Below, in pieces: positions 9,308 through 57,399 of a stretch of 64,000 bases of DNA (the first letter of the stretch is position 1; every line of letters begins with the position of its first letter). The notes beneath the pieces are model-generated. The model did not search any database and was not told the origin of the DNA. It saw only the letters and a list, made by a program, of their open reading frames with translations. The stretch covers positions 310,001 to 374,000 of the forward strand of contig JACAAK010000002.1 in assembly GCA_025093985.1 (NCBI GenBank), in the 5' to 3' direction. The position numbers and the translations under genes are program-made. The stretch is from Calvatia gigantea. Taxonomy: Eukaryota > Basidiomycota > Agaricomycetes > Agaricales > Lycoperdaceae.

Positions 9308-9311
9308 CCGC
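9308..9311. other. Target-site duplication CCGC (left)
   Basis: CCGC directly flanks the inner element at 9308-9311 and again at 23457-23460. The 4 bp length matches the ACGG duplication at the solo LTR of the same family (60062-60065 and 61373-61376). Confidence 0.9.
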
Positions 9312-10618
9312 TAAAGAGGCAGAAATAGAAATACTAAATGTGATATGGATGTTCGGCTTAGATTAAGCTGACGGAATAGATTTTTAAAGATTTCTGCACA
9401 AGGCAAGTTCGTGGGGAGGCAATCTGACAATATGAGGGACAATTCCACAAAATAACGCGAATCAACGACGCGTGGAGAACACTAGAATAGCTAACTACCT
9501 TCGCTAAGAAGAGTAAAGCCAAGTTACACTGTAAAAAGTGCGACTCGTGTCCTTTATCCAAGAAGTTAACAAGACACAGAACCTCAGGTACTCCCTAAGC
9601 TTCACCCTTATCAAGTTAACGACCAGAAGCGCACTGTCCTACACTTGTGATACGCCAAGTACCAGGGTGTAGCGATGCAATACGCTCTTAATCTAAGCTC
9701 ACTTCACGAGTAAGCCTGAGGTCTTCTTCTTAGATCAAAAGGTCTCAACCCTAGCTCAAGTCACTTAGTCTAGTTAATCTCGAAAGAACTTATTACTTTG
9801 CTTCGCTCAGGCACAATAGATCGCTTTTCACTGCGCTCTGAAGGCTGGGCAATGGCTAGTAGGTTCCTTGCCACGTCCGACACCTCAGAGGGGGTTTATA
9901 TATTATTTGGGTGCTCGTTATGACAAGACAATGATTACACAACTAGGAACATATTATCAAGCAAGGTACAAACCAGTAGATTAGATCGCGCGCCAAGAGA
10001 GCTGCAACCTGTTAGATTAGTGAAACATTGGAAATACAGAAGGATTCTGGGTATCCGTTTGTTCCGGGCTGTGTTTTAGCCCGTTCTCTGGGTCTGCATT
10101 CTTCTCTAAATATGTAGAACATCTAAGATTTCGGACGTCGCGTGAACTGTTCTCCTATGTGTCCCCGTGGATTGTACGCGAACGCGTCCATACGTGTCAT
10201 TAGTGCTGAGTGATGTTCGTTAATCTAACAACGGTGGCATTTCCTTGTGAACATGCCGATCAGCCTTTTAGATTAAGCACGTCGGACTTATTTCTCGAGT
10301 CTAGACTCATTGGAGGGGTCCCGTAGCTCTGTATAGACGCATTGGAATGGTTTTACTGCCTGGTCCGGCCGGAATCACGACTGGTCATATGGTACACTGT
10401 TAGAATTGCTTTTTGTTAAGCACAGTGGTCATCCCGTAGCCGCCGCTATCCGTCATCAATGGTCATAGTGTTCTACAGTGATCGAGTACTCTTTTATTAT
10501 ACTGTTGGGCTCTTAGATTAGGTCGTACTACTACAGGAAGGTTTGATGCAATCGTTAGATTAGGCTTGTATGCCTTAGATTAGCGATTTTCATGCGTGAA
10601 AACGGCTTTGCCGTTACA
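9312..10618 (-). repeat. 3' LTR of the inner element
   Basis: On the plus strand it reads TAAAGAGGCAG…GCCGTTACA, 1307 bp, about 99.6% identical to 22150-23456. It contains eight exact copies of TTAGATTA/TAATCTAA (9358, 9689, 10012, 10221, 10268, 10513, 10555, 10575) and a near copy at 9977. It also carries a 67-codon ORF (9358-9561, minus). Confidence 0.95.
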
Positions 10619-11123
10619 TCTCCCCCTCACTATAGATGACTGCCCTCAGTCCTCCGTTAAGTCTGACATGATCATTAAGCAACAACTTTGCTTTCTCTCT
10701 GTTTGCTGATCTTTAAGCGCGCACAGAAGCACCGGGCTCAATCAACTAGAAGTATTTTTATGCTTCACGGTGAAGTCTTCGAGGGATGATCTGATTTCAC
10801 CCTCTTCGACATCGAGTTCTCCTTTCGGTAACCCTATCGCCGTTAGCGGCTAATGCTTCTCGCAGCTGATATCCGCTGTTGCTATCTTAAGCCTTTCATG
10901 GCTGCCTGTTATTCTAAACATTTTTATATGTTTTGTGTGTATCTTAGATACATTCCTCTCGCTAAGTACGATACCGGGTTGTAGAACCTCGCTCATCCGT
11001 TTTGGACTGTGAGATTAAGAACCCGGCCTTATCACGTTGCGTTAGCTTAACCTTCCCTCGATCGTGCGGTATATAAGAACAGCACACGTTTTTTCTTCCT
11101 AGTTTCATACATCTATCATTGTT
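10619..11123 (+). promoter_or_regulatory. PPT plus candidate promoter of accessory gene A
   Basis: 10619-10631 is the polypurine tract (minus strand) for plus-strand priming. The rest, up to the ATG at 11124, has no ORF. A TATATAAG box at 11070-11077 lies ~50 bp before the ATG of gene A, giving it its own promoter that fires opposite to the LTR promoter. Confidence 0.6.
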
Positions 11124-13342
11124 ATGGCTGCCCCGCACGATTCCAACGCAAATCTGGTCACTCCGGCCTCCATTCGCAACAGTCTGGTGGCTCGTGGATT
11201 CGAAGGAGAGGAGTTGGAGAACCGAGTTGCAGAAATGGTGGACATGCTGTGTCCAGGGTGGACGGGTACGCCCCTTTTTTCTTCTCTGGTGTTCAGTGTG
11301 CTAATCTCCGCCTCTAATCTCAGGCGGACCACTACGAGCACCCATGCCACTTATCCGGCCAACGCTCTCATTTATTGCGCCGGCCCCCACCGTTGGTCTC
11401 CAACAGAACAAAACGTTTACGTTCCCTCCCGTTCAGACCTCCTTCGATGCTCCCGGGCCTTCGCTTAGGCCACAGCCTGTTATCTACCACCCAGGAACTG
11501 GTGCCCGTATTCCTCCAGGCATGCAGGCCGTGATGCTACTGCCAACACCTATTGGTACTTTTCTTTTTTTTACTCTATCTTGTTATTCCTGAGCTGACTT
11601 GTGATCTCAGCTGCAACTCAGTCATCGCCGTCTTCTTCTAAGCCAAAGAAGTCCCAGAAACGCGCTGGGAAGGCACGTCATTCATCTACTTTTAACCGTA
11701 TTTCTTGTTTGACCATTTATCTAACAGAACCTCGATGTTCCGACCCCAATTTCGGCAGGTCCGTCTGCCTCTACTGACCCTCCAACGTCTTCCATGGCGA
11801 CGGGAGGATCTATTGCAACCAGCCGGCCTTCGCGCATAGCTGCTCCCAAGACTCCCGGTGCCCTTGTCGACGTAAGTCGTTTGATTTATGACCGTTTTTA
11901 TCTTAATCTAATTTCATTCATCTAGCCCGCGGCCGCTCGTCTTGCCTTGTTGGCCGCTCAGGCAAAGGCACAGGCTCGGACTCGTCAACGAGCTACAAAC
12001 GCATCACCGGATGACGCCCCACCCAAGAAACGTGCTCGCGAGGCCGTCACGTCGGCCAGGAAGACTCTCACCGCTCCTGCCCTCTCCGCGTCGTCGTCTG
12101 TCTCTACGACGAATTCCTCCAAACCGAAACCTCGCCGGGTGATCCTGAAGATCCCCGTCAGGGAAGAGACAGTAACCGCCCTCCCCGAGGCCCTTCCGGA
12201 GACAATCCGTCCCGCTTCTTCGCTGGTGGGAGAGATTGACGTCGAGGAGGTTGAAGAACCCCCCAGGAACGTTCCGGAGCCTGCAGAGCCCTGAACCCGT
12301 CGTCTCCGTAAGTCTCTTTTCATCAAATCTTGTCTTTCTTTGCTAATCTAACAGGTGCTGCTTGTCATACGGACGAGGACCTCGTTGAGGAGTGCGGCTT
12401 GAAGGCGGCCACCTCCTTCTTTTCTGATGTTGGGCCAGCGTTCTCGCTGCTCAACACTGAGCCTTATGTGAGTGTTTTTCATACAAGGTACACCTTAATC
12501 TAACACTTTTCTAGGGCAGCGCCGGACAGCTTCAGTGCCTAAACTGCATGAAGCTGTTCTCACCTGACTGCACTCCCGGTGGCAAGGACCAGGACGGCAA
12601 AACTTGCAAGTGCAAGCAATGCCTTGCCCAGAATGCCACCCACTGTTCGGATACCAAGCCGGCACCTCTCCTTCAGTACCAGGCTGAAGGTGCTCGACTT
12701 CGCTCCCTGACCAGCGACCACTGTAAGTCATTTTTATTCTCTTATCTAAGTGGTTATGTTGGCTGACCAACACTATTTCTTGTTAATCTAGACCTCGCCG
12801 ACTGATTCCGGAACCTGACGGCGGCCCACGCTCAAGTTTTCGGGCTCGAAACTTTCCTGGACATGGCTTACGCGAACTACCACGCCCTCGTCTACTCGTT
12901 TGCGAAGGACATCCAGATTGCGCGTCAACTTCACGGTCGCGAGTCCTCCTTCTGGGTTGAGTCCGGGCTCTGCAAGACCCAAAGCGACGCCTCCGACCTG
13001 TTCGCCTTCGTCGACGGATTCCTCGACGAAGTCCATGCTTCGGAAGATCCCGATCTCGCTCGCCGGTCTTACTTCGCTCACGGCCGTTTCCTCAATGTGC
13101 TGTCTGGTTTGCGCGGGGAGGCACCCAGGACATGGCCTGGCATGCCTCCTACCCCGTCCTTCGCTTCGAAACACGCCGACTTCACCGATCCCCCCGTCCC
13201 TCGTGTCAAGAAGGCCCGCTCCGCCAAATCTAAGGGGAAACAGCGAGCAGCATCGCCCCCTCCTTCCTCGAGCCTGCCTATCAGCGAGGAGGAGTTCAAT
13301 TCTGGGGACGACGCGGCGGCGTCTTCTGATTACGAATCCTGA
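11124..13342 (+). pseudogene. Accessory gene A: spliced antisense NLS/zinc-cluster protein
   Basis: Eight exons join in one frame: 11124-11265, 11324-11554, 11611-11672, 11728-11871, 11926-12307, 12355-12467, 12515-12722 and 12792-13342 (1833 nt). Introns are 42-70 bp with CTAAC-like branch sites, mostly within TAATCTAA(C). Intron 3 needs a GC-AG donor to keep phase. The product would have a short N-terminal helical segment, a Pro/Ser-rich part, a basic NLS (PPKKRAREA, about 12017-12043), then paired CX2CX7C clusters (C-LN-C-MKLFSPD-C and C-KQ-C-LAQNATH-C with an extra upstream Cys; about 12538-12648), and an acidic tail. Two in-frame TGA codons interrupt it (12292-12294 and 12803-12805); both could come from CGA. 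It could be a pseudogene in this copy, or end early at 12294. The function is unrecognised; nuclear DNA binding is inferred. Confidence 0.65.
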
Positions 13343-14000
13343 GGTTCGTGTGGCATTTTTTCTTGTCATATCTCGAGAGTCTTCGGAGTAGATACATTAC
13401 CGTAGTAGTGTATTCCGCTCCCCCAACATCTTGCTAGGTATCTAGGTACATCCTACTTAGATATATGTTTTTTCTTTAGTCTTTCTGCATCTTTGGGTGA
13501 TACCCTGGATGCTCAATTCAATCTGCTTGTGCGTGTTTTTGTGTGAATCCATAAATCTTAAATTTTTCCAGAAGTAAGTGTGTGGATTCGCCAAAATTTT
13601 GTACCATTGCACGTATATTGCACGTCTAGTCAAATCTAAGTCTCTGCAGTACACACTCCCCCCCACTAAAACGGACGGGTGCCCTCACCCTTATGCTATC
13701 CATTTCAGAGACGTGTGAGAGGTGTCGCTATGGTATGACCTATTTCAAATCTCGGCAACTTTTTGCAATTTCAAAACGTCGCGGCTCTCATCGTTCAAAA
13801 TTCGCCAAAAGCAGCCGAATTTTTCATTCTTATCTTATACAGGTTTTTCCGCTAATCTCAAGGTCTTTTTCACTGGCAGTTTGTGCCGTATTTCTAGATA
13901 GACCCTTTTTTGATGTAGCTACATATAATCTAAACGCAGGGAACTTGTACCTCAGTTCTCCTTGCTGTATATCTCGCTAGGATCTCTTGTCATTCTCTTC
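13343..14000. other. Intergenic spacer between accessory genes A and B
   Basis: About 660 bp holding the 3' end of gene A and the presumed promoter of gene B. A CATATAATCTAAACG stretch near 13920 combines an AT-rich box with a TAATCTAA motif. No further ORF is convincing. Confidence 0.4.
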
Positions 14001-15339
14001 ATGTCTGCTGATACTGTTAATGCTCGTATTGAGCTAGACGATGCGATTAGTACCTTCCAGCACCGATTGCAACGTTTTCAGCATCAGGAGAGCACACAGG
14101 CTTCCGTATTTAATGCTTTGAACGACGCTACTGCCCCAGCCGTAAGTCTTAGATTAGCACCTTCGACCATTGTTGTCGACAGCTAACGTGTCTATCCTTT
14201 CAGTCTCAGTTCCTTCGTCAACTTTCAGGCGATGCTGCTGGTTTAGAAGACGAGAAGAATGTTAATCTCGTTTTCCGTGCTTGCAAGATCTTTGAGACCT
14301 GGCAGAACGAACATGACAAGGCTTTCAAGATGCCAGAAGTCTACAAGAAACTTCAAGACTTCTGTGCTCAGTACCAGCGCTCCAAAGCTAAAGCTAAGTC
14401 AAGTTCATCTGGACCAGCAAGCCCTGCCGCAACTCCCGCGTCTACGACGACTACTACTGGCTCAGGTCCTCCGACCAAAAAAGTGCGCAAAATCTTTAAT
14501 CTAAGTTGATCCGTTGTTATCTCAATAATGTCCGCTAGCGTCATCGCAGTAAGCAAGTCATTTCGCCCGAGACCGTTGACGACTCTGACAAAGAGGAGAC
14601 ATCGAGGACCGTAAGTTATTCTGATATCTCCTATTGCCTTAATCTAACGTTGTTTTCGCCACAGGAGACCATGCAAGTTGATGATTCTGGCCCTCCAGGA
14701 ACAGCTGTATCCCCTGATGACGACCGAACCAGTAGCGCCATGGTGCTCGAGCCTCAAATCGTCACTACCGCTGTTAACCAGGTGAATCATTCTTTCTCCC
14801 GTCGCCGCAGCACATCGTTCTCAGCTGTGGTTCGTCTTGCTTTCTTCATTAATCTTGGTTAGCTATTGCTAAGACTCATTAATCTACGCTTGCAGGAGAC
14901 AGCTGTGGCTGATACTCGTGCTGAGACGGTGTGTATACCTTATGCCTTTGTGCCCGGCTTAGATATCAGCAGTAGCACTTATAAGCGAGCCATACAGCTT
15001 ACTACCGGTGCGAAGCATGTTCATTTTTCGCCTTCCACTCCGGAACAAGGTCAGCTTTTCAGAACACCTTAGTGCGTCCTAGCTGATAACCAAATTCCAT
15101 AAGTTGTGGCTCTAGCAAAGGTCATTGAGCCGTTGACTCTCAAGAATCGCGAGCTCTATGCTCACTATGTCACTCGTTGCGAGAGCGCCGTGCTTCAGAC
15201 TGGTCTCCTTGGTACCAGCTCCGAGTTAATCTCAGCAGCCCAGGCATTGGAAGCCGCTGCTCGCCGCTATGAAGTCTTAGCTAAACAGCAGGAACATCTC
15301 TTTGTTCAGTTAGAGAAGTTATCCGGCCATTCTGCTTAG
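14001..15339 (+). CDS. Accessory gene B: intact spliced antisense nuclear-type protein
   Basis: Six exons (14001-14141, 14204-14482, 14539-14610, 14665-14781, 14896-15049, 15104-15339) give 999 nt, 332 aa, with no stop or frameshift. All junctions are GT-AG and in phase. I chose ATG 14001 over the in-frame ATG 13962 because the intervening stretch looks non-coding. The N-terminal ~90 residues are helical with Q/R/E-rich patches (HRLQRFQHQE). A Ser/Thr/Ala linker and a basic NLS (TKKRHRSK) follow at the exon 2/3 junction, then an acidic Ser/Asp region. The C-terminal exon is helical (about 80 residues, A/E/Q-rich). I recognise no domain. It ends 117 bp from the convergent pol stop (15456). Its intact frame, unlike gene A, suggests recent selection or simply youth. 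A role in element regulation is inferred from position only. Confidence 0.72.
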
Positions 15340-15455
15340 ATTACCTCTAGCATTCTTCAATCACCCGTTTTTACTTAGATAGTTTTTACCCTCAGTTTGT
15401 ACGTGTTCACGCAAACAGAGTTTTCTATCTTATGATGAAATTCGGTGTGATCGCG
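15340..15455. other. Convergent 3' ends of gene B and pol
   Basis: 116 bp between the TAG of gene B and the minus-strand stop of pol. It contains a TTAGATTA starting 2 bp before the end of B (15337-15344) and T-rich stretches on the plus strand that could serve as 3' processing signals. Confidence 0.35.
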
Positions 15456-18400
15456 TCAGTTCTCGATGTCTGAGTCTGTTAGCTTTGCCTCTGACTCATC
15501 TTCCATGATTAATCTATCCAAACCGTCCTTAGATAGATCAATTAAATGTTCGATTTTCTCGTCCAGCGTTAGCTTAGACCGTGCTAAGTAAGGTATTACT
15601 CTAAAAGCTGCGACCTTATTTTGCCATATGGATCCGTCCAGTTCTGCTAAGATATACGCGCCACCTTTAAGTCGCTGAATCACTACCATAGGTCCTAGAT
15701 ACCTTGGCTTCATTTTGCGATCCGCTGACATTTGTATGGCTGAATTCTTAACTAAGACTAACGATCCCGGCTTTAGGTCAAAGTCTTTTATCTTATATTT
15801 CATTTCTTCTTCTAGTTTTAAAGCCCTATTTAACTTTTCGTTAGATAGATGTTTTCGCATTTCATCTATGTGGTCTACGTGTTTAGCTAAGGCCAGTGCT
15901 CGTAGACCGATAAGTTCTTCTGTAGATAGGAAACGTTCTGGGTATTTAACTAACCAGGTTGCTTCTATTATATCTAATGGTAACGTTGGGTGCGCTCCCG
16001 TTGCCATGAAGTAAGGCGAACATCCCGTACCTTTTCTTATTGTTATTCTATCAGCCCACATTACATGGTGGAGATACCAGTACCATTTTCTGACATCGCC
16101 ATTTGTGGCCTTATACAGCATTTGTCTAACATCCCAGTGGGGTCTTTCTATTGTCCCGTTAGCTTGTGAGTTGTAGGGAGAGATAGTGACTCCTTTAATC
16201 CCATACTTCTCAGCTAACCAGCCAACTGCTTTCTTAAATGGCGAGCCATTATCCATGACAATCTTCACAAGACTTCCCCATCTGCAGATGATATCTTCGA
16301 AAAGCCATTGTCCGATAGACTTGGCGTTCTCTTTTCTTAAGGCTCTGGCTTCCATCCAGGATGAAAGTCCACATCGGCCGTGGACAATATAACTACAACC
16401 GTTTGACGGCGGAGTCATATGTATTGTATCTGCATGTAAGATTTGGAAAAGCGACGGAGTATGCGTCACTACCGGTGGCAATTCTAATGCCATCTTCTGT
16501 CTAACCTGACACAGGTGACATGTCTTCACATACCATGCTATGTCACCCTCCATTTCTGGCCACCAGAACCTCTGAGCTATGAGCTTTGTGGTCGCGTACG
16601 CTCCTCTGTGCCCTAGCTTATCATGACAAGTTTTCATAATTCTCATCTGATGTTCTTTAGCTAAGATGAGCGCAGGGTTTCCACCACTCGCAGACTTCCT
16701 GTATAAGCGACCATCGTCGTCTAGCCAAAAGTGTGAGGCAGCCCTCACAAATTTAGCTTGATCGGCATCCATTTTACTGATGTCAAATCCTTTCGGGTCG
16801 TTAGCTAACCATTCCCGGATTCGACTGAGTCGTTTATCTTGCATTTTTGCTGTCTCCGGCCTCCGGTCTTCATTATAGGGTGCCAGTTCTTTGTCGTCAG
16901 GTTCTTTATCTAAGTTTTCTGACTCTAAGGTAGCGACCCTATCTAAGAAAGCGCGGAGCAACTCAGGATATTTTTCCTGGTTAGCTATCATGCGTCTGGT
17001 CTTTATGTCTTGTTGGGTAGATTCCTTAGCGTTATCTAAGTCATTTTGGAAGTCTACCAACAGGCTCATTACTTGCTGCGTGTAGCCTGTTCGATTATCT
17101 ATTTCTTCGTAGAATTCTTCTAAATCTAATGGGTCTTCGTCTTCCGGGTTAGCCTTAGATAGAATAAAGTCATCCCCGTCGTCCTCAGATCCATCGTCAA
17201 AGGCACGTTCTACTGGGTCCCCTGGGTACCAAGGTCTTCTCGAGAGTCCATCAGGCCCAAAGGCCTTACCTTTCTTATGTACAAGTTCAAAATGAAAGTT
17301 TGTCCGTATATAATCTACCCAGCGATTTATCGTCGCGTTAGGCAGTCTTCCGGGGTTGTTCAACATTCCAAACAAATACTTAGCATCTGTCTCAACGATT
17401 AGATTTCGACAACCAGTCAATAGATAAGTCTCTTCTTCTAAGACCATTCTTAGACCGCACAATTCTCGCTTAGGTTGTGAATATCTCTGTTGTCGTTCGT
17501 CCATAAGCAAAGAGTTAAACTTCACATAATGGATTATCTTACGATCTTCCTCGTCTCTTTGATAGAGATAATATCCTACTGCTCTCCAGGACGAGTCAAC
17601 CGATAGGACTATGGGCTGAGTGCTTGGAAATTTCGGATTTCTAGTATGAAAGCAGTTTTTAATTGCTTCCTTTAGATTATCTTGGGCTGTCTGCTGTTCA
17701 GGTCCCCATTCGAATGCTATATGCATCTTGCACACATTATATAACGGTGCAGCGATTATCACAAAGTTCGGAATGTGATTCCTACATCTAACGGCTGTCC
17801 CCAAGAAAGATCTGGTCTCTGAAGCATCCTTACAAGCGCCCCATCGTAATATAACACCGATGGCGTCTGCTGTCGGTTTTCTTCCTTTATATGAGCAGTC
17901 AAATCCTACAATAGTTATATGATCTGCACATATTGTTGTCTTTGGCCCGGAAAAGGTGCCTCCCACATATTTCATTCGTTGTAATATGCGGTTCACCGTG
18001 TTCATATGTTCCCATATGAATCGCCTAATGCCCGGGTTCCCTTCTATAACCTCGTAATCACCATTAGATAACTCGTAACGCGTAGGTGGTCCCCGTATAG
18101 GCACGTCGTCAATATAGGGGACTGTATGTTCCGGAATTTCATCTGACAATATATAGGTAACGTCATCATGAAAGATAGGTACTGAATTAGTCCATCCCAT
18201 AGGCAACGTTACTAATCTAAGGGCTCCGAATGGTGTTTGGAAAGTCGTTAGATCTCTAGACGACTCAGCCAACTGCCTTTCGTCATACCCTACATATAAA
18301 TCTAATATGCCGCTACAAGCCCTTCCTGAGAAGTGCATAGCTAATTCTTCTGTTGCGGGCGGCAGACCCGAATGCGCGATTGTCACTCTATTTAGAGGCT

Positions 18401-19220
18401 CTAAGCTATGTACTAGTCTGAGACTCTTTCCGTCTTTCTTAAGTACGCAAAACCATTTAGATCTATAAGACGAATTCGAGGGCTCATATACCCCTGCGTC
18501 TATTTTTCTTTTGATGATTCTACACACTTCGTCATATATCGCTGGGGGAATCCTGAAATGTCTTTCTACCCATGGTATATGGGCAATAGTGGGGATCTCT
18601 ATCAGAGGGAAAAACTCCTCCTTAAATTTGCCCCTTTCAGTATCATCCCAAGCGAACGCTTTATTGTGTTCTGCAATTAACCAATGCATTAGCTTTCACT
18701 CCTCATAAGTCAAGAAGTCCCCAATATGAGCCGCATCCATCTTGTTTTTCCGTTCTTCGGTATACCTGCCTTTAGATTTGAAAGTTGGCGGGTTAACCGG
18801 CAGGATTGGCAGCTCAGTCAAGGGATCTCCAATTATCTCTCGTTTTATTCTGTATTTGTCTGGTAGTTCTCCCAGTACGGGTCTCACTTTCAATGCGACT
18901 GGTTTATATTTCTTAGCTAAACAAAGAATATGTTCCTCCTCTGTAGGTGGTCCATAGATTTCGTCTAACGCTGTCACTCTTTGAATAACTCTGCTAGGAC
19001 TTACAATCTGAGATAAGAACGTAGTAAGTAGTTCTTTATCGCGAGACTGCTGCGTCACTAAACTCTTCTGTAAGTATATTAGATTAACTTCGTCGGAGGT
19101 CATAGATTTTACATCAACTGCCAACGTTTCACTAATATATGGTTTATTCTCGTTATCTAAGCTAATTATAAGAGCAACCTCTCCTTCGATGCCTTTTTCG
19201 AAGTCATCGAGGCTACTCAA
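15456..19220 (-). CDS. Inner element Pol: RT, RNase H, integrase
   Basis: The frame entered by -1 shift at 19220-19226 runs 19220 to 15456, interrupted only by one TGA at 18696-18698 (context TYEE*KLMHW). Order on the minus strand: linker; RT ([14 protein letters not shown] near 18430, active site YIDD near 18110); RNase H ([14 protein letters not shown] near 17590, ETDAKYLFG near 17380); integrase HHCC finger (H…H near 16640-16600, CHLC near 16510); core with HADTIH near 16430, MDNGSP near 16240 and TIERPHWD near 16150 (DDE intact); and a C-terminal GPY/F-like region ([11 protein letters not shown]) near 15690. No chromodomain follows. All catalytic residues I can check are present, so apart from the single TGA (probable CGA/TGG mutation, or readthrough) the enzyme looks functional. 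Confidence 0.9.
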
Positions 19221-20296
19221 AAATTTTGCTCTTTAATTCGCGGTAATTGGCCTTTAGCGTAAGTAGGCAACGTTGCTCTATTCTTTGTATTGGGATCGGT
19301 AATGACTATCATTTGCGCTCCTTCAGCAGAATTCACCACTCGACTTTCTGTTAGGACGTCGAAAGGTCTGCCTAATAATATTGAGTATGGTGGACTGTCG
19401 ACTACATGGACCTGTAGATAGACCGTCACGTCTCCGAAGCTAAACGGCACATTCTTAGCTAGACCACAAGTCCGGCTTATCTGGCCATTCACACTCTGCA
19501 TGTTGATAGTCGTGTCTGGATCCCATGTAATTCTACAATCTATCGCCGTATTTCTGGACATGGATACAATTTGTGAACCACTATCCAACAAAGCCTCTTC
19601 TTCTCTAAGATCGTTTACTAAGGTCGGAATGACTCTTAGCGAAGCCATATCTTTGGCCGTTATAGTCCCATTATTATCTAAGGAGAATATATGCTTGCCT
19701 CTATCTTCCCGAGGTACCGCTTCCAAGTACTGTAGAATAGGATCGGTAATTCTCCAAGTTAGATAGGGACGTCCTTCAGTGTCCAAAACTTTCTCTGCGA
19801 CTTTCTCTGGTTTCGCGAGCGTTGAGACCTGTACTAAATTAATGACAGGCTCCGCATTTTCCGAATCAGATTCGTCGTCTTCGATATGCAACGCGTTGTT
19901 AGATTTAATTGCTACGCGTCTTTTAGCAATTTGGTCTTTGTACTTTTCTCGGAGTTTGGGGGAAATAGCCAACAATTCTTTGTGAGATAGAGAGACGTCT
20001 CCTTTGAGAATTCTCTCTAATATTTTATCTAATTCAACCCCATCCTCAATTTCTGTTTTGTGTTTATATGACGGCTGCTTTTGTTCGCGCAAGTACTTTG
20101 CAGGTACAGGCGGTACTTCTACAACCGGCCTAAGAGATCTAACGTTTTTATAGGGAAAATCGTTGACCTGCTTAGATTTCGTTGGTTCTGTGTTTTCTTT
20201 GTCTTTGGCACTTAGATTAGGATCATCTTCTTTATCGCTCTCCAATTCCGTCTGTTTCCTGGCGGGGACCTTCCGTCCAGGGGACGGTTTCTTCAT
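19217..20296 (-). CDS. Inner element protease ORF (pro)
   Basis: The frame lies -1 relative to gag and is open from upstream of the gag stop. The aspartic protease motif LLDSGSQIV is near 19600, with the flap/second part (ILLGRPFDVL) near 19360, as in Ty3-type proteases. The upstream half is basic and E/K-rich, resembling a nucleocapsid-protease linker. The first ATG (20296) follows the frameshift site and is probably not a start. It ends at TGA 19217-19219 directly after a second slippery heptamer, so protease and Pol would be made by one and two -1 shifts respectively. Confidence 0.85.
   Translation of the reverse strand: MKKPSPGRKVPARKQTELESDKEDDPNLSAKDKENTEPTKSKQVNDFPYKNVRSLRPVVEVPPVPAKYLREQKQPSYKHKTEIEDGVELDKILERILKGDVSLSHKELLAISPKLREKYKDQIAKRRVAIKSNNALHIEDDESDSENAEPVINLVQVSTLAKPEKVAEKVLDTEGRPYLTWRITDPILQYLEAVPREDRGKHIFSLDNNGTITAKDMASLRVIPTLVNDLREEEALLDSGSQIVSMSRNTAIDCRITWDPDTTINMQSVNGQISRTCGLAKNVPFSFGDVTVYLQVHVVDSPPYSILLGRPFDVLTESRVVNSAEGAQMIVITDPNTKNRATLPTYAKGQLPRIKEQNF
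19220..19226 (-). promoter_or_regulatory. Candidate -1 frameshift site, pro/pol (A AAT TTT)
   Basis: On the minus strand the pro frame reads CAA AAT TTT TGA. A AAT TTT fits X XXY YYZ exactly and abuts the stop. The -1 frame is open straight into Pol (TTG AGT AGC…). No downstream pseudoknot was worked out. Confidence 0.7.
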
Positions 20297-20304
20297 CGAA
20301 CCGC

Positions 20305-22119
20305 TTAAAAACCCGACTGATTCTTTTTAGAGCTGTCCTTCTTCTGAGCCAAAGCCAAAATCTTTGCAAGCTGACTGGCCAGGTCGTCAGAATCGTCTTC
20401 TTCATCGGACGCTGGTTCAGGATCTTTAGCTTTGCGTGATTTCGCAGGCTTAGTGCCAGATAGCAATGTTTCAATTGTGTTAAGGCGGCCTTTTAGATTT
20501 TCTAGTTCTAAGCCGCGTCTATCTAACACTTGCTTGCTCTCTTCAATTATACTATCTCTAGTATCTTTAAGTTGGTTTGTGTAGATGGAAATCTCAGGTG
20601 CGCGACCATAAGATTGGTAGGGACCTAGATCAGGTACTTCCTCTTCTTGAGGCAATTCGGGTTGCATGCCTAGGCATACCAATAGCGTGTTTGGTAAGTA
20701 CTTCGCTACGATAGCCTTAATAGACATCCCTTCAATTCTAGGTATGGGTGAGCTGTCCGCAAATCTAAGTTGATTTCCATCGACTTTAATTTTTCCATCT
20801 TTCACGTCCTGGTCTTTTTCTGGACATGCGAGCCAATGATGCTTTGGATCGAAACAATAGTAGCATCCTCTGCCTATCCCGGCCACGGCCTCGTTATTCT
20901 GTCTCGGCTGTCCCTGACCATAGTTTACAGGGTTTGCAGGATGCGTAAATTTTGTCTGCATTGTAGCTTTCATGGAGTCCATAAAACTCTGCATATTTTT
21001 CTGATTAACAGCCAGAGTATCTTTTAGATTAGCGATTTCTTCGTGTAAGTCCAACTGCTGCTCAACAGGTTCGCGTTTTACTTGCGGTGGTATAGCTCGA
21101 GACATAGTCTCCAGATTGTTATCGTATTTTAACGCTTTAGCTATGGTCTTTCCACTGACCAGCTCTACTGCTTTAGCAACGACTTCAGTCCAATCATATG
21201 GATCTTCGCCTCGGGCCACGCCTCCTGCGCGAGCGCGACCGTTGATACTTAATCTAGTATTCAAGTTCTCTTGGAAGTGTTTATCTAGACTTCCAACAAA
21301 CATTTCTACCAGTTCACGGTTCGTTACGAGCGGCGGATTTGTTAGACATTTTTCTGCTTGTAACGAGAACTTCCTCTTGAAAGCTAAGAGGCGTTCTTCG
21401 TCAAACATACTAATGTGTTTGTATTCTCGTCCTAATGCTCGTAATCTAGCCACTGAACCTTGTTCTTCTGCTACGAGCTCCGGATACTCCTGCTTCAAAC
21501 GATCTTTAAAACCGTTCCAGTCTGGAGTTATATATTCCGGGAAGCTTGTCCATTCATCTCGTACGCTAGGCTCTACATAGCTAATGGCCCATTTTACTTT
21601 ATCTTCCATGTCTGTGATACTAGAGACATCGAATAAGCGTTCTAGATGCCATAGGAAGTCTCGGAGTGTAGCTCCTCGACCATCCCATACTGGGGCTCCC
21701 GTAGCCATAGGGTTTGGCATAGCAGGGCTAGGCATAGTGTTTGGCTGATTTGAGTTCGTTTGAGAGGTAGTTTGGGTCTGTGGTTGTGCCGGTATTGGCA
21801 AGTTTCGCGCTAGATTAGGCGAAGGGTCCACGGAAACAGCAGGATTTACTGTTCGTGAAGTGCGTTTGCAAGCTGAACTTTCGCCAAGAGTGTCTGAGTG
21901 TTGAGAACGGCGGGCGTTTCTAAGCAACTGCTCTGGATTATCTAGCTTCGGTAACGGCTCTGTTCTTCTAGAATTTTGAGTCTCTCGACCTTTGGGTTTT
22001 GTTTTGTTCTGTTCTGGTACAGGATGTGAAGTAGCAATCTGTTTTTTATATGCTCCGGGTGGAGGCCCGAAGCTCGTTTTGAGAATGGTAAAAGGATGTG
22101 GAAATAAAGTGGCTCTCAC
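20305..22119 (-). CDS. Inner element Gag
   Basis: A 604-codon frame with a Pro/Gln-rich N-terminus, a capsid-like domain from about residue 145 (WDGRGATLRDFLWHLERLF … WTSFPEYI) and a CCHC zinc knuckle C-YY-C-FDPK-H-HWLA-C near 20860. A basic C-terminal tail is followed by the slippery heptamer and TAA at 20305-20307. The frame continues upstream past the primer site into the LTR without an ATG; 22119 is a GTG. The first in-frame ATG is 21735 (residue 129), just before the capsid-like part. Gag may therefore start at 21735, at a non-AUG codon, or by splicing from the LTR leader; there is an acceptor-like TTTCAG at 22122-22127 (minus strand). Confidence 0.85.
   Translation of the reverse strand: MRATLFPHPFTILKTSFGPPPGAYKKQIATSHPVPEQNKTKPKGRETQNSRRTEPLPKLDNPEQLLRNARRSQHSDTLGESSACKRTSRTVNPAVSVDPSPNLARNLPIPAQPQTQTTSQTNSNQPNTMPSPAMPNPMATGAPVWDGRGATLRDFLWHLERLFDVSSITDMEDKVKWAISYVEPSVRDEWTSFPEYITPDWNGFKDRLKQEYPELVAEEQGSVARLRALGREYKHISMFDEERLLAFKRKFSLQAEKCLTNPPLVTNRELVEMFVGSLDKHFQENLNTRLSINGRARAGGVARGEDPYDWTEVVAKAVELVSGKTIAKALKYDNNLETMSRAIPPQVKREPVEQQLDLHEEIANLKDTLAVNQKNMQSFMDSMKATMQTKFTHPANPVNYGQGQPRQNNEAVAGIGRGCYYCFDPKHHWLACPEKDQDVKDGKIKVDGNQLRFADSSPIPRIEGMSIKAIVAKYLPNTLLVCLGMQPELPQEEEVPDLGPYQSYGRAPEISIYTNQLKDTRDSIIEESKQVLDRRGLELENLKGRLNTIETLLSGTKPAKSRKAKDPEPASDEEDDSDDLASQLAKILALAQKKDSSKKNQSGF
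20308..20314 (-). promoter_or_regulatory. Candidate -1 frameshift site, gag/pro (G GGT TTT)
   Basis: On the minus strand the gag frame ends TCG GGT TTT TAA. G GGT TTT is a textbook X XXY YYZ heptamer touching the stop, and the -1 frame (TTA AGC GGT TCG ATG…) is open into the protease. Confidence 0.72.
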
Positions 22120-22130
22120 ACTGAAACTCC

Positions 22131-22147
22131 CCTCGCGGTGGGCTCCA
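22131..22147 (-). other. Primer-binding site of the inner element
   Basis: TGGAGCCCACCGCGAGG begins 2 nt after the end of the right LTR on the minus strand. TGG is the complement of a tRNA CCA end. I do not assign the tRNA. Confidence 0.65.
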
Positions 22148-22149
22148 GA

Positions 22150-23456
22150 TAAAGAGGCAGAAATAGAAATACTAAATGTGATATGGATGTTCGGCTTAGA
22201 TTAAGCTGACGGAATAGATTTTTAAAGATTTCTGCACAAGGCAAGTTCGTGGGGAGGCAATCTGACAATATGAGGGACAATTCCACAAAATAACGCGAAT
22301 CAACGACGCGTGGAGAACACTAGAATAGCTAACTACCTTCGCTAAGAAGAGTAAAGCCAAGTTACACTGTAAAAAGTGCGACTCGTGTCCTTTATCCAAG
22401 AAGTTAACAAGACACAGAACCTCAGGTACTCCCTAAGCTTCACCCTTATCAAGTTAACGACCAGAAGCGCACTGTCCTACACTTGTGATACGCCAAGTAC
22501 CAGGGTGTAGCGATGCAATACGCTCTTAATCTAAGCTCACTTCACGAGTAAGCCCGAGGTCTTCTTCTTAGATCAAAAGGTCTCAATCCTAGCTCAAGTC
22601 ACTTAGTCTAGTTAATCTCGAAAGAACTTATTACTTTGCTTCGCTCAGGCACAATAGATCGCTTTTCACTGCGCTCTGAAGGCTGGGCAATGGCTAGTAG
22701 GTTCCTTGCCACGTCCGACACCTCAGAGGGGGTTTATATATTATTTGGGTGCTCGTTATGACAAGACAATGATTACACAACTAGGAACATATTATCAAGC
22801 AAGGTACAAACCAGTAGATTAGATCGCGCGCCAAGAGAGCCGCAACCTGTTAGATTAGTGAAACATTGGAAATACAGAAGGATTCTGGGTATCCGTTTGT
22901 TCCGGGCTGTGTTTTAGCCCGTTCTCTGGGTCTGCATTCTTCTCTAAATATGTAGAACATCTAAGATTTCGGACGTCGCGTGAACTGTTCTCCTATGTGT
23001 CCCCGTGGATTGTACGCGAACGCGTCCATACGTGTCATTAGTGCTGAGTGATGTTCGTTAATCTAACAACGGTGGCATTTCCTTGTGAACACGCCGATCA
23101 GCCTTTTAGATTAAGCACGTCGGACTTATTTCTCGAGTCTAGACTCATTGGAGGGGTCCCGTAGCTCTGTATAGACGCATTGGAATGGTTTTACTGCCTG
23201 GTCCGGCCGGAATCACGACTGGTCATATGGTACACTGTTAGAATTGCTTTTTGTTAAGCACAGTGGTCATCCCGTAGCCGCCGCTATCCGTCATCAATGG
23301 TCATAGTGTTCTACAGTGATCGAGTACTCTTTTATTATACTGTTGGGCTCTTAGATTAGGTCGTACTACTACAGGAAGGTTTGATGCAATCGTTAGATTA
23401 GGCTTGTATGCCTTAGATTAGCGATTTTCATGCATGAAAACGGCTTTGCCGTTACA
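22150..23456 (-). repeat. 5' LTR of the inner element
   Basis: 1307 bp. On the minus strand a TATATAAA box (22733-22740) marks the probable promoter, so U3 would be ~23456-22745 and the transcript would start near 22705. A 67-codon ORF (22399-22196) lies in the transcribed leader. The TAATCTAA motif set is the same as in the left LTR. Confidence 0.93.
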
Positions 23457-23460
23457 CCGC
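23457..23460. other. Target-site duplication CCGC (right)
   Basis: Pairs with 9308-9311. It lies 6 bp inside the donor side of the antisense gene intron (GTAAGT at 23461-23466, minus strand). Confidence 0.9.
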
Positions 23461-23466
23461 ACTTAC

Positions 23467-23990
23467 TTGGAGCGGGTCTGTCCGGGTTGACACCTGATAC
23501 CCATGTCGATGCAGTGCTTGCAGGGGTTGTCCCTACCCATGGGAACACACACCTGCAGCTGAACCTCCTCCTCTTCCTCCTCATCCAATGAACCCGGCGC
23601 ATCATCCTCTTCGTCCGAATCCTCCACCCTCAGCTGTTTCCTCAATCGGCTGGAACCCACTACCGGTTCCTCCCGGGCCTTCCCCTTCCTACGTCATCAT
23701 TCCTCCACATTCTCCTCCTCTTGCTCCTCCCTTTTCTTATGTGCCACCTCCTCAAGCCACTTCTTCTGCTCGTCATGTTTCTTTGCCTCCTCTCATTTCC
23801 TCTCCTTATCGTACCTCTTCTTCTCCTTCTCTTCGCGCTTCTCCCTATCTGCTCTTTCTTTGGCTTCAGCGGCAGCGAGGTCCGCAATCAACCTGCACTC
23901 ATCCTCTTCCTCCTGCTCACGCTGAAGTCTGGCACGTTCACATTTCTCCTCAAGTTCGGCTTGTAGTTGGACAGCAGTCTTGGGAGGCAT
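23467..23990 (-). pseudogene. Antisense zinc-cluster gene of the outer element, exon 1
   Basis: ATG 23990 starts a frame with a K/E/R-rich coiled coil (MPPKTAVQLQAELEEK…), an acidic stretch, and a first CX2CX6C half-cluster (C-KH-C-IDMGIR-C near 23500-23530). It ends at 23467 before a GTAAGT donor. Three premature TGA codons interrupt it (one after KERK, two adjacent after NVEE). Exon 2 is at 8691-9270. The gene lies between pol and the 3' LTR and reads against pol; the MPPKT… start and twin cysteine clusters are, from memory, a recurrent but unnamed protein type in agaric genomes. Upstream (23991-24115) would be its promoter. Confidence 0.75.
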
Positions 23991-24127
23991 GGTGGTAGTA
24001 GGAGGTCAAGAGGCAAGCAAAGGAAAATTTTTCAAAAGTGCGGATCTTATGCCCGCATCAAATTTTTCAACTCCATTTCCCATGACACCTTCATGGCCTT
24101 GAGGGCTCGGCCCTAAGGGGGGAATAC

Positions 24128-24750
24128 TATCACAACCCGTACACGTGCTCACCTGCTTCACCCGCTCTTACCCAGACTATACTTTATATTTTATTTACCA
24201 TTCACTCTCACCCGCTCTCCCCCATCTTCCCTGCTCTCCATTCTTACTATTATGTCTAACATTAATTTCCGATTATCCTCCTTGTACATTTCTCCGGTCA
24301 TCATACCTACTCCCGTTTCCCTTGCAATCCCTTTTACCATTTATATCATTCCTGTTTCACCTTATTCCTTTTAGCTAGTTGCATTCCTGGTGTTTTTATC
24401 TAGCGGCCATACCTAGCCCACACCTGAAGTCATAGTAGTTTCCTTTTGTAGAACTACACTTCCTCGCGTATATAAACCATAGCTACTTTGCCTGTAATCC
24501 TTAGTCTGAAATCTACTTAGCGACATGCTACTTCTATTCTACCTCTGTCTCTGTCTCTGTCTCTGCCTCTGACTCTGTCCTTGTCCCTTATTCTGAAGTT
24601 AGGACCACTCGTCGGCAGGAGGGCGCAACACATACATTGAAGCCATAGTCCTCCTGAGTTTGCCTGCTTTGTCCATCTTCGTCCACATCCACACATCATC
24701 CCTAGGTGTCTAGACTCCGGTCGTCTCACCCGTGTGACCTGCACTTAACA
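24128..24750 (+). repeat. 3' LTR of the outer element
   Basis: It runs TATCACAACC…CTTAACA; the expected first TG is TA by a G-to-A change. It is preceded by the purine tract AAGGGGGGAA. It pairs with 2546-3172 and is followed by AGTTT (24751-24755). Confidence 0.92.
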
Positions 24751-29180: not shown

Positions 29181-32100
29181 TATCTCGCGGAGATTCTCTC
29201 TGTCGGCCCGGCGCGACGTTTAAACTCCAAAGGATAAAGCCGTGGCGCAATACAATTCCCGGACACTTAACAACCTCCCCACCTCTCACTCACCATCTTC
29301 GCCCTTCCTCTGCCCAATACACCACTCCACACTACTTTCCTTCCTTTTTTCCTCGACCTTCTTTCCGTATTTGAATACAATAAGCAGACCCCTTCATGCC
29401 GTATCCCTTCACGGACGATTTGCCCGAACATCGAATCCCTGGCGTCAGCCCACCAAGACCTGGAATAGTCACTTTTTCGGCACAACGATTCTGTCCTCCG
29501 GCCGCTGTACCTCAAAACGGTGATACACTAAGGCAGTCGCGTCGGTCCCCAGCCGTAACTGACCCCACCGAGGTTCCGCCCACTATCGACACAGTCATGG
29601 TCCCCCGCCTACCCCTAGGCGTGAGTACCACAGCTGGTATTTTACACCACTATCCAATCCTCAAATGTTTTTCACAGCTGTCCTCGTATTTTCCTTCCCT
29701 TCTGCACAACGGAGCCGCGAGTTTTAGGCCCTCTGCGTGGATCCGAAAGGTGAGCGATTGCTCCTCTTCTATATTCTTGTTACTGAACAATTAATTACCC
29801 ATTGCACTAGCTTCGATCCTATAACGAGGTTTGCGTGATGGGGGCTAGTATCGTGAACAAGAGGTTGAAAAAGAGCCTCGCAGGAGTCGGGACAAATGTC
29901 CTCAGAGGGCTTAAATGTCTTTGGGATTGTGCAACGGTGGGCCAATCGTATATCGTCTTAGTGAAATGGTACTAAATGCATAAACAGCGTACCATAGCCC
30001 CGCTCAAGCACTACGCCAGGAACGCTATCCAACGTCTGGCCGATTCCCGCTTGTCAACAATACGCGTTGAGATGTAATTAGATGTGGCGCAGCCGGGGTA
30101 GGGCCAGACCGCCCAGATGTTAACGTTCCGGGAGATCCTTCCGCTCAACAGTGAGGATGTCGTCTCTGCAACAAATCAAATACGCAATCCGTTTGCGGTC
30201 ATGTCTAATCTCTTATGTGGAGTTGGACACAATCTCAATGCAGTTAAATTGTCCACAATTGCGGCATCATTCAAGAAATCCGACGGAAACCTCCTATGGT
30301 CAGACTGATAGAAAGCACCTATGACTTTGCGGGAGCCCTCTTCCCGAACATCACATCTTGATGGTTCGGGACGAGAGCAGCCTCATACATCAAGTCTTGT
30401 GGCTGCTCCCATGAATCACTTTCAAATCATGGGCGGAGAGTTCAGAACGAGATCTGCGCATATAATCTCAGTTCATCGGCTGCGGAGTCGACTGGGCTTC
30501 AGCAGGACCACCTTTTAGCATTGAGTCCAATGTAAAAGGCGGCAGGAACGGACCAAGTACATCGACCTTGATTGGAGATGATCTTATCAAGAGCGGGAAC
30601 CAGCCGGCGTTTGACACTATCCAGCTCTTGGTCTCTATTTCATATATCAAAGAAGCTGGAACCTTCCGAGGTCTGCTGCATTGACGAACGATGGCTAGAC
30701 CAGAACTTATGTTGAAGTTGTCCTAACCCGTGAAATAAGAGGCGACAGTGGCCTCTTCTCCGAACGCCAAATCAATGCCCCGTGAGGATGACTGGGTCCT
30801 TCGCAGAGAACATAAGGGATATTCAAGGTCGCCCCGGTCACTGACCTCAAGTAGCTTGGACCGAAAGTGCTTTGGGAGTCCTGCCGCATGTGGACGATAG
30901 GTGATCAACACTACGCGCCTATACTCATTCGTTCAATCTTGATTCCGAACCTCCAGCTACGCATGATACTGGAAACCATAAAATCTCTCCTGATCCGTTC
31001 CAAGAAACCCAAAGTGCCGACTAAAGCAACACAACCACCGCTCAGTGCTATCGAAAAATCGGACTCTTCAACTGATACCGCCCAAGCTGCCCCATGGCCC
31101 GCTCAAAATTGCACCGGGGCTAAGGCAAGCAATGCACCAGATCCAGATACCTTGCCGCCGTCAGCAGGTAACGAAACAACCTACACACTTCGCTCACTAC
31201 CTACAGAGCAATGTGCACCAACCATGTCGGCTTCGGGACTCTTCTCTTACGCGCACGATTTCGTGATCAACATGAGCACGTTTAATTCTGGCGAAACAGG
31301 TGAGCTTGTCCTTCTTTTATTTTTTGGATTCTTATCAATTCCCTGTTAGTCCTTCAAGTCCTTGCTCAAAAGAGGATTCCCGGTGCCGAGGTCCACTCTT
31401 CTGTGCGAGATCCCCCACCAAAATGCCATCCCGACACCCGAAAAAGCTTGAGAGGCCGCGTCATTGATTGGTTGAATGGCTCAAAACGACAATGGAGGAT
31501 GCTATGGATCCTTGGTCCCATGGGTGTAGGGAAATCCGCAGTCGCACAAACCATCGCAGAAGAATCCAACGCTTCAGGTCGTCTCGGTACCGCCTTGTTT
31601 CTCTCGAGACCCAACCACAGGGACGACCCCGAAGGTGTGATCCCTACCTTCGCCTATCAACTCGCTGCAAAATACCAGAATACAAACGCATCATTACCCA
31701 ACGCCTCGCTGACGACCCCACTATCCTCGAAAAGAACCGCCGAATGCAGTTCAAGAAACTCATCGTCGAACCCTTCCAAATTCTCATGACCCAGAACGAC
31801 CCGATGGTTCGGGAGTCACTGTTGATTATCTTAGACGGGCTGGATGAATGTAAAAGCAAGGAGGCCCAGTGTGAGTTCATTGAGCTCATCAGCGACCACG
31901 TCCGGCAGGTGGAAAAATTTCCACTTCTCTGGATGATCTGCAGTCAACCAGAATGGCACCTAAAGCGCCTGCTTCTACAGACGGACTTCCTGCTCACCTG
32001 TCAACGGGAGGATATTAATATCGATGACGACGAGGCCCAACAAGATGTCGCTAGCTTTCTTGAAGATGATTTTCAGGGCATCCGCAGACAATTTTATGAC

Positions 32101-57381: not shown

Positions 57382-57399
57382 GATTAGTTAGTGCGAGCG

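Follow-up and report, generated by a model that had tools for sequence, protein, structure and literature searches.

A strand-symmetric short word spread over a fungal Ty3/Gypsy-type retrotransposon is a candidate family-specific binding tag

A young Ty3/Gypsy-type LTR retrotransposon occupies positions 9312–23456 of the 64-kb stretch of DNA analysed here (the window). Its gag-pol genes are encoded on the minus strand; the plus strand carries two further, intron-containing genes, A and B. The element carries a short word, TTAGAT/ATCTAA, that is strongly enriched, falls on both strands alike, is commoner in coding sequence than codon use and dinucleotides can explain, is confined to one family in the sequence analysed and is avoided by the substitutions that copies of the family share. 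Our preferred reading, a tentative one, is that selection maintains TTAGAT and its extended form TTAGATTA as a binding tag specific to the family and read on double-stranded element DNA, the reader most likely being the product of A or B.

The two LTRs are 1307 bp each, differ at five positions and are flanked by a CCGC duplication, as in Ty3/Gypsy elements (Table 1). The domain order (protease, reverse transcriptase, RNase H, integrase) is also that of Ty3/Gypsy, with the protease in an upstream open reading frame. The best solved relative of the pol product is Ty3 Gag-Pol 7q5b (E = 4.8e-32), which matches pol residues 31–486. Pfam places RNase H at residues 328–461 and the integrase zinc domain at 678–731 but gives no reverse transcriptase match in pol at E ≤ 0.001, so the assignment of that domain follows from the match to 7q5b. 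Rfam and tRNA scans of the 64-kb window found nothing.

Table 1. Features of the element and its surroundings in the window
Feature	Positions	Strand	Remarks
Target-site duplication, left	9308–9311		4 bp, CCGC; same as 23457–23460
LTR (3' LTR in gag-pol orientation)	9312–10618	-	8-mers at 9358, 9689, 10012, 10221, 10268, 10513, 10555, 10575
Internal region	10619–22149		13 exact 8-mers (11904, 12344, 12496, 13926, 14149, 14497, 14640, 15336, 17672, 18213, 19079, 20212, 21024); 46 TTAGAT/ATCTAA cores (16 + 30)
Gene A	11124–13342	+	antisense to gag-pol; about 8–9 exons
Gene B	14001–15340	+	antisense to gag-pol; 6 exons, 332 aa, open throughout
pol ORF	15456–18689	-	1077 aa; RT-RNase H-integrase; Pfam and Ty3 Gag-Pol 7q5b
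ORF between protease and pol	18696–19220	-	174 aa; no Pfam match
DUF4100 / aspartyl protease ORF	19217–20296	-	359 aa; Pfam
gag-like ORF	20305–22119	-	604 aa; no Pfam match
LTR (5' LTR in gag-pol orientation)	22150–23456	-	8-mers at 22196, 22527, 22850, 23059, 23106, 23351, 23393, 23413
Target-site duplication, right	23457–23460		4 bp, CCGC; same as 9308–9311
Solo LTR, same family	60066–61372	-	98.3–98.5% identical; all 8 motif copies

A preliminary description of this DNA had reported the 8-mer TTAGATTA/TAATCTAA in eight exact copies per LTR, against about 0.04 expected by chance, and in more than ten copies internally. Both counts hold, with eight in each LTR (six read as TTAGATTA and two as TAATCTAA on the plus strand) and 13 in the internal region, and 3000 simulations from the left LTR's own dinucleotide statistics gave a mean of 0.069 per LTR and a maximum of 4. 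One-mismatch copies are present as described, but there are two per LTR and not one (9730, 9976 and 22568, 22814). The single copy mentioned elsewhere in the window was recovered at 54419, but the eight in the solo LTR had been missed. A host-wide word is rejected, as the 48.6 kb of the window outside family sequence hold one 8-mer.

The 8-mer represents one version of a shorter core, TTAGAT/ATCTAA. In the 12.8 kb of non-redundant element (one LTR counted) the core occurs 57 times, where an order-2 Markov model fitted to the element predicts 11.5 (z = 13.8), and it ranks first of all 6-mers; TTAGATTA occurs 21 times against 0.8 expected, and TTAGATAA and TTAGATTT are likewise strongly over-represented. 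Single-base variants of the core are not raised at most positions. The best 6-mer elsewhere reached z = 5.8 and 4.3 in two other 12.8-kb stretches of the window, 5.3 in an outer Gypsy element, and 3.9 and 5.2 in two loci of F2, a related Gypsy family. When EM motif refinement ran unseeded it drifted towards runs of A, though seeding with the 8-mer preserved a core close to TAGA.

The cores divide 30:27 between the strands and are spaced at about one per 225 bases, with gaps that fit a random spread (CV 0.85 versus 0.97, 95% range 0.77–1.25). The longest core-free gap, 936 bp, lies within pol; the 1.1 kb that directly follow the 5' LTR (the start of gag) are core-free, the last core being at 21024. 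Density per kb is 11.1 in the introns of A and B, 8.4 in the LTR, 4.5 in gag-pol and 3.8 in other non-coding sequence, against 1.1 in the exons of A and B and 0.39 in the rest of the window. No tandem array in the element holds the word, the sole tandem repeat being 21 bases of another unit, and present tandem arrays are rejected as its source. One word per 225 bp is also close to one per nucleosome.

The gag, protease, 174-aa and pol frames together contain 30 of the 57 cores, in both orientations, compared with 7.2 ± 2.4 in synonymous-codon shuffles (z = 9.6) and 8.1 ± 2.4 in synonymous shuffles that also keep dinucleotides (z = 9.0). Under both nulls the core ranks first of all 6-mers in gag-pol, and pol alone has 16 (z = 6.9). 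Among the controls, namely one F2 pol and seven open reading frames of the window outside the element, the top word reached z = 4.3–5.5 with at most six copies. Composition or codon use as the cause is rejected by the Markov and synonymous nulls. It is very improbable, more generally, that the word is a functionless product of compositional, codon-pair or mutational bias or of a dispersed old tandem array. The gag-pol region is A+T-rich relative to the exons of A and B (44% versus 56% GC), and the element's other words are tied together by the common descent of the family. However, the order-2 Markov, synonymous and dinucleotide-preserving nulls all fail, variants at most positions stay at background, the excess is absent from all nine F2 loci and from the outer element, and biased mutation would not keep cores clear of shared substitutions while private ones still hit them (see below).

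According to the preliminary description, the 8-mer is the branch-site context of most introns of A and B. CTAAY is a branch-site form, which TAATCTAA(C) fits, and the introns are the densest region: of 12 modelled introns, 8 contain the core and 6 the 8-mer. The statement was nevertheless too strong, as the CTAA of the 8-mer lies 10–45 bases from the 3' end in only four of the 12, and one B intron has it in reverse, at a distance of 7 bases from the donor. Enrichment of a strong branch-site context through the many A and B introns is extremely improbable as the explanation, because the core tops all 6-mers in gag-pol coding sequence, where the cores lie in both orientations, and a further 11 of the 57 lie in the LTR. 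The gag-pol cores under the synonymous nulls contradict branch sites as a general cause, and serving as a branch site can be no more than a subsidiary function of the word. The exons of A and B are core-poor, with two or three in 2.8 kb (2 versus 0.3 expected).

In the sequence analysed, the word is restricted to one family. TTAGAT occurs 18–31 times per locus in the word-bearing family (21 loci of 3.8–6.2 kb, window copy included) but 0–2 times per about 6 kb in nine of nine F2 loci, and the outer Gypsy element has three in 8.05 kb and no 8-mer. Genome-wide, TTAGATTA occurs 2734 times versus 1494 for the reversed word; an LTR-specific 23-mer has 167 genome occurrences, and these LTRs cover the excess if each holds eight words. 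Locus L045, considered as a 67% relative, was rejected as such, being a 95% identical copy by DNA. By pol, relatives P0001–P0011 (68–86% identical; Agaricus bisporus var. burnettii and other records) belong to the same Gypsy clade, P0001–P0120 are 54–86% identical, and two further Gypsy groups show 40–46% pol identity; no relatives were found in viral contigs. The comparison covers one family in one genome, with nine F2 loci and the outer element as sampled relatives, and the co-occurrence of A and B with the word therefore counts as a single case.

A comparison of 17 internal copies indicates selection on the word. Outside CpG, substitutions that two or more copies share fall in cores twice, versus 10.1 ± 3.0 in neighbouring 6-mers of matched frame and GC (none of 400 draws gave so low a count), whereas private ones hit cores 11 times versus 13.0 ± 3.4. 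The basis is 31 covered core sites with 13 events, and the division into shared and private is imperfect because private changes, at dN/dS 0.24–0.47, are not purely neutral. By base, T, C and G show the shared deficit clearly and A slightly. As shared changes avoid the word, some protein, possibly one that the element would encode, likely reads it and so recognises the element.

Equal enrichment in unrelated sequence, or word positions that differ between family members, would have told against the preliminary description, and neither was found: the word exceeds its shuffled expectation, the F2 loci and the outer element lack the enrichment, and all eight words are kept in 31 of 35 aligned LTR copies (one of the other four is truncated). 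In these copies non-CpG changes affect 2 of 1912 motif cells versus 121 of 32,789 others, and shared changes 1 of 82 core columns versus 36 of 1073. Such conservation in LTRs says little, because the copies, even at 89–93%, amount to a single sequence whose decay is mostly at CpG. There are 53–68 CpG per LTR in copies at about 98% or more versus 27–29 in the 95% group, and this decay in old copies suggests host methylation of dead copies.

Neither an RNA signal nor a promoter looks like a word spread evenly between both strands over 12.8 kb, from which we infer a reader that acts on the integrated copy. A sequence-specific protein would recognise the word in the element's double-stranded DNA, and the putative reader would most likely be one of its own antisense gene products. 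Gene A encodes a cysteine cluster, C-x2-C-x7-C-x11-C-x1-C-x2-C-x7-C, in the exon at 12515–12722, together with basic segments; its exon model is uncertain around 12096–12377 and 12723–12836, and its last exon has a longer open frame in several other copies. Gene B is a candidate by its basic stretch, PPTKKRHRSK, and by the few nonsynonymous changes among its shared ones (dN/dS about 0.16; 7 synonymous, 4 nonsynonymous). The last exons of A and B have 19 and 18 genome matches, respectively, which we take by their identity to belong to the word-bearing family, so that both genes would occur only there.

Protein database searches returned no homologues of A or B at E ≤ 0.001, and Pfam gave nothing above cut-off for spliced B or the scanned pieces of A; TRP28 (PF04195) did not match spliced B or any of the four A pieces even at E ≤ 1. 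For two A exons, PDB sequence searches gave no match below E 1.2 and single-sequence structure models were poor (mean pLDDT 59.8 and 46.4). As neither homologue nor Pfam match in the tested pieces points to its function, A or B is proposed as the reader by inference.

If A or B is the reader, its role might also be ordinary transcriptional activation or autorepression. Antisense or accessory proteins of retroviruses regulate transcription, according to the available text of PMC7264820 and PMC11963269, and the LTRs are the densest in words after the introns, but for such control words should be needed chiefly around promoters, not throughout pol, which makes this role quite improbable. It is improbable, too, that the word serves the pre-integration cDNA, with a reader that coats, protects or imports the long double-stranded molecule. 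Strand symmetry and wide coverage suit the coating of DNA equally, as do the basic stretches in A and B; however, A and B are antisense and have introns and are therefore transcribed from integrated DNA, not from genomic RNA, a layout that would fit a nuclear regulator better.

Alternatively, the word could be the site of a host transcription factor, chromatin or insulator protein recruited element-wide, with A and B doing other jobs. Pfam and homologue searches tie neither gene to the word, and clusters of host sites in retrotransposons are known. The insulator of Drosophila gypsy is one clustered block of Su(Hw) sites, read by the host. There, too, a Ty3/Gypsy-type element has short binding sites for a protein in repeated copies, but these are limited to one non-coding segment, whereas the sites here spread over most of the element. 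Enhancer or insulator use predicts no spread across gag-pol coding sequence, and the word is rare outside the family, whose LTRs can cover the genome excess; we therefore regard a host reader as unlikely. DNA uptake sequences of Neisseria and Haemophilus are found on both strands and within genes and are kept by a sequence-specific reader, but they form a bacterial chromosome-wide word for uptake, as opposed to a transposon tag.

The preliminary description pointed to the VANDAL elements as a precedent. VANDALs are Mutator-like DNA transposons, whereas the element here is an LTR retrotransposon. As far as the available text of PMC5735166 and PMC10398659 goes, VANDAL21/VANC21 of Arabidopsis likewise combines its own 8–9 bp family motif with accessory genes in the element, a motif that differs in related families and signs of host CpG methylation on the copies. 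Enrichment in the own family and absence from relatives recur here (nine F2 loci and the outer element), and the precedent stands in outline for the family-specific motif, the accessory genes and the CpG decay. It does not extend to placement: in the accessible parts of PMC5735166, VANC21 motifs are concentrated in non-coding regions and tandem repeats and two VANDAL21 coding probes tested lacked the motif, whereas here 30 of 57 cores are in gag-pol coding sequence, without tandem amplification. The motifs of that system, YAGTATTAY and AGTTGTCC/AC, are unrelated to the word.

Grande, RIRE2 and Retand, in the portions of PMC7264820 and PMC11963269 available, likewise have a long region between pol and the 3' LTR with antisense genes whose products are suspected of DNA binding, and A and B lie there as the antisense frames of Retand do. 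Retand differs in its TRP28 domain (PF04195), not found here in the parts of A and B scanned, and in tandem arrays in about half its elements, whereas the word here forms none; those portions describe no element-wide motif for any of the three.

By analogy with VANDAL/VANC, it is plausible that A or B reads the word and thereby counters CpG-methylation silencing. Binding would hold the element open and unmethylated and so permit transcription and spread, as VANC does on VANDAL. A fuller version, possible though doubtful, is that the element wrote a self-recognition barcode into its own DNA, coding sequence included, and that its own antisense-encoded protein reads it and exempts the family from methylation silencing, independently of VANDAL and without tandem repeats. 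In the open-licence literature, searched with limited terms, no retrotransposon with an element-wide selected motif was evident, nor, by titles and abstract openings, a fungal retrotransposon anti-silencing system; among the matches listed for the 8-mer as text, all looked unrelated by title.

Few cases are known of transposons that mark their own DNA to escape silencing. Comparing shared with private substitutions offers a simple way to look for such tags, whatever the transposon family. If the proposed reading is true, sequence-specific anti-silencing would occur in a retrotransposon and in fungi, where the word and its candidate reader would form a compact, testable pair, and escape from silencing would constrain gag-pol itself, its coding sequence being shaped by a DNA-level tag.

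The 8-mer TTAGATTA, counted on either strand, occurs eight times in each LTR of the young Ty3/Gypsy-type element and 13 times in its interior; elsewhere in the window, a solo LTR belonging to this family has eight copies and position 54419 has one. The eight exact copies per LTR and the more than ten internal copies of the preliminary description are thus confirmed by count, and the solo LTR retains the motif. Its estimate of about one copy elsewhere holds for 54419 but missed the eight in the solo LTR. One LTR and the interior together make up 12,838 bp of non-redundant element, which hold 21 copies of the 8-mer against 0.8 expected; the core TTAGAT (or ATCTAA), with 57 copies against 11.5, ranks first among all 6-mers; TTAGCT is likewise raised (31 against 9.9). 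Among the 24 single-mismatch variants of the 8-mer, z exceeds 4 only for TTAGATTT (10 copies), TTAGATAA (8) and TGAGATTA (4) and lies near 4 for GTAGATTA (3) and CTAGATTA (4), while the remainder are mostly at background level. The consensus is approximately [C/G]TTAG[A/c]T[T/A][A/T]A.

Coordinates of features in the window
Feature	Position	Strand	Description
Outer Gypsy element	2548-24750	gag-pol plus	LTRs 2548-3172 and 24130-24750, 90.9% identical
Young element	9312-23456		LTRs 1307 bp, 5 positions different; CCGC duplication
gag, protease, pol of young element		minus	
Gene A	11124 to ~13342	opposite to gag-pol	Between pol and left LTR
Gene B	14001-15340	opposite to gag-pol	Between pol and left LTR; six exons, 332 aa, open
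Solo LTR of same family	60066-61372	minus	All 8 motif copies

The cores lie 30 on one strand and 27 on the other and are spread over the twelve full 1-kb bins (8, 4, 2, 4, 4, 3, 5, 5, 7, 4, 7 and 4), with none in the last 0.8 kb or anywhere in the interior beyond 21024. Their spacing is no more regular than chance, the longest core-free gap is 936 bp (15972-16908), and the only tandem repeat found in the element is a 21-base stretch with an 11-base unit at 17436. Outside the element, the window also contains three related repeats (about 46639-48527, 50175-52067 and 55325-57437; 73-87% mutually identical) and a pair of related segments (29184-31262 and 33261-35070; 69-74% identical) that is possibly a duplicated gene.

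Core density per kb is 11.1 in the introns of genes A and B, 8.4 in the LTR, 4.5 in gag-pol, 3.8 in other non-coding DNA, 1.1 in the A/B exons and 0.39 in the rest of the window. Measured against an order-2 model of each region, there are 11 cores versus 1.9 in the LTR, 8 versus 2.4 in introns, 30 versus 7.0 in gag-pol, 5 versus 1.3 in intergenic DNA and 2 versus 0.3 in the A/B exons. The 8-mer had been described as the branch-site context of most introns; it is present in 6 of the 12 modelled introns (the core in 8 of 12), and introns account for a minority of word sites. When the codons of gag, protease, a 174-aa ORF and pol were shuffled synonymously, 7.2 ± 2.4 cores were expected and 30 seen (z 9.6, the top 6-mer), with 5 coding 8-mers against 0.18; pol alone has 16 cores against 4.0 (z 6.9). 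With dinucleotides also preserved, the core again ranked first (30 against 8.1 ± 2.4, z 9.0). In the same test, the best word of the pol of F2, a related Gypsy family, and of each of seven window ORFs outside the element reached z 4.3-5.5 with at most 6 copies. The shuffles rule out protein sequence, codon use and dinucleotides as the source of the coding constraint, which therefore acts on the DNA.

Twenty internal family loci, merged into 17 copies because three pairs lay within single copies, were compared with the window element after removal of CpG-prone positions; their non-CpG divergence reaches 6%. Sharing of a variant by two or more copies mostly reflects change in the lineage that spread; such variants affect 2 of 186 core positions, as against 268 of the 5350 other positions (Fisher p 0.009), a contrast based on few events in related, non-independent copies. 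For the 31 covered core sites, comparison 6-mers with matching frame, GC and location gave 10.1 ± 3.0 such variants, and none of 400 draws was as low as 2. Private variants showed no clear core deficit, either against matched 6-mers (11 versus 13.0 ± 3.4, p 0.34) or unmatched (11/186 versus 510/5350, p 0.12), and are not purely neutral (dN/dS 0.24-0.47). Shared variants are hardly depleted at the A positions of the core (2/76 versus 48/1390). The LTR alignment also points to avoidance of cores, though more weakly. We consider it very probable indeed that the word is a selected DNA tag, whatever the identity of its reader.

Enrichment is not shared by the relatives compared, which were nine F2 loci (40-44% pol identity) and the older outer element, two other groups at 40-46% pol identity being left out. 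The F2 loci have 0-2 TTAGAT per ~6 kb, as against 18-31 in 3.8-6.2 kb at 21 loci of the young element's family. The outer element, into which the young one seems to have inserted, matches the Pfam protease, RT, RNase H and integrase zinc domains; its 8.05 kb contain 3 cores and lack the 8-mer, and a search of it for a comparable word of its own found none. Near its 3' LTR, open frames antisense to pol (23463-24005, minus strand) encode an acidic stretch and a Cys cluster; two pieces scanned had no Pfam match. In the genome to which the window belongs (46 Mb, 77 contigs), TTAGATTA occurs 2734 times and the reversed word 1494 times. An LTR-specific 23-mer occurs 167 times (up to two mismatches), so that family LTRs alone would hold about 1336 of the 2734 words if each carries 8.

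The LTRs carry 53-68 CpG in 25 copies of at least 98% identity and 27-29 in five copies at ~95%, while TG plus CA rises from ~157 to 186-190, a pattern suggestive of methylated-CpG decay and a sign of host silencing. No CpG occurs in the word, which is kept through this decay: all five 95% copies have 8 of 8 words. In another mushroom, Marasmius oreades, repeats are reported to be far more CpG-methylated than the remaining genome (PMC9674265). Old copies (L032, L035, L044, L047, L058 and L060) have in-frame stops and CpG observed/expected ratios of 0.09-0.26, as against ~0.95 in young ones, among them L031, L033 and L038, a sign of strong CpG-directed decay in this genome. The target-site duplication of the window element lies at 9308-9311/23457-23460. 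Of 35 LTR copies (L001-L030 and L061-L065), 26 are flanked externally at both ends; the 4-bp flanks are identical in 15 of these (N-CG-N in 14, CCAC in one), and 6 of the 11 mismatched pairs differ as CG versus TG or CA. Insertion sites thus seem to centre on CG, integration targeting a CpG that later decays.

The pol of the element matches Ty3 Gag-Pol in PDB (E 4.8e-32), and the named organism among its best 120 of 1483 relatives is Agaricus bisporus var. burnettii (68-75% identity), which suggests that the host of the element is a mushroom-type fungus. Pol identity is 68-86% for the relatives P0001-P0011 and 54-58% for P0012-P0120. Two junctions of the gene A exon model are uncertain, and its last exon has a longer open frame in several other copies. 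Gene A encodes a seven-Cys cluster (C-x2-C-x7-C-x11-C-x1-C-x2-C-x7-C), whose spacing resembles that of fungal Zn2Cys6 clusters; a Pfam scan of pieces of A gave no match to these. The last exons of A and B have 19 (mostly 71-100% identical, one fragment 51%) and 18 (82-100%) genome matches, taken from their identity as copies of the family. Shared changes in gene B comprise 7 synonymous and 4 nonsynonymous (ratio ~0.16, close to 0.15 for pol), as expected under purifying selection.

The VANDAL precedent of the preliminary description fits in outline, the reader here being only a candidate. The YAGTATTAY motif bound by VANC21 in Arabidopsis VANDAL21 is found in non-coding parts and spreads by tandem repetition, and coding probes without it are poorly bound (PMC5735166). 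The young element belongs to a different class, lacks motif arrays and uses coding DNA, and so we do not class it with VANDAL systems. In the plant elements Retand and Grande, antisense ORFs suspected of a role in DNA binding occupy the same place as A and B do here.

The strand symmetry of the word, its wide spread and its occurrence in coding DNA all suggest a protein that would read double-stranded DNA along the element. From the layout, A and B, antisense and with introns, should be expressible only from integrated DNA, and their introns would be kept through retrotransposition, since they run in reverse in the genomic RNA. Such expression makes them natural candidates for nuclear regulators, one of which would be the reader. 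The likeliest single account, which we put slightly below even, is a self-encoded reader predicted to bind the word and counter host silencing of the element.
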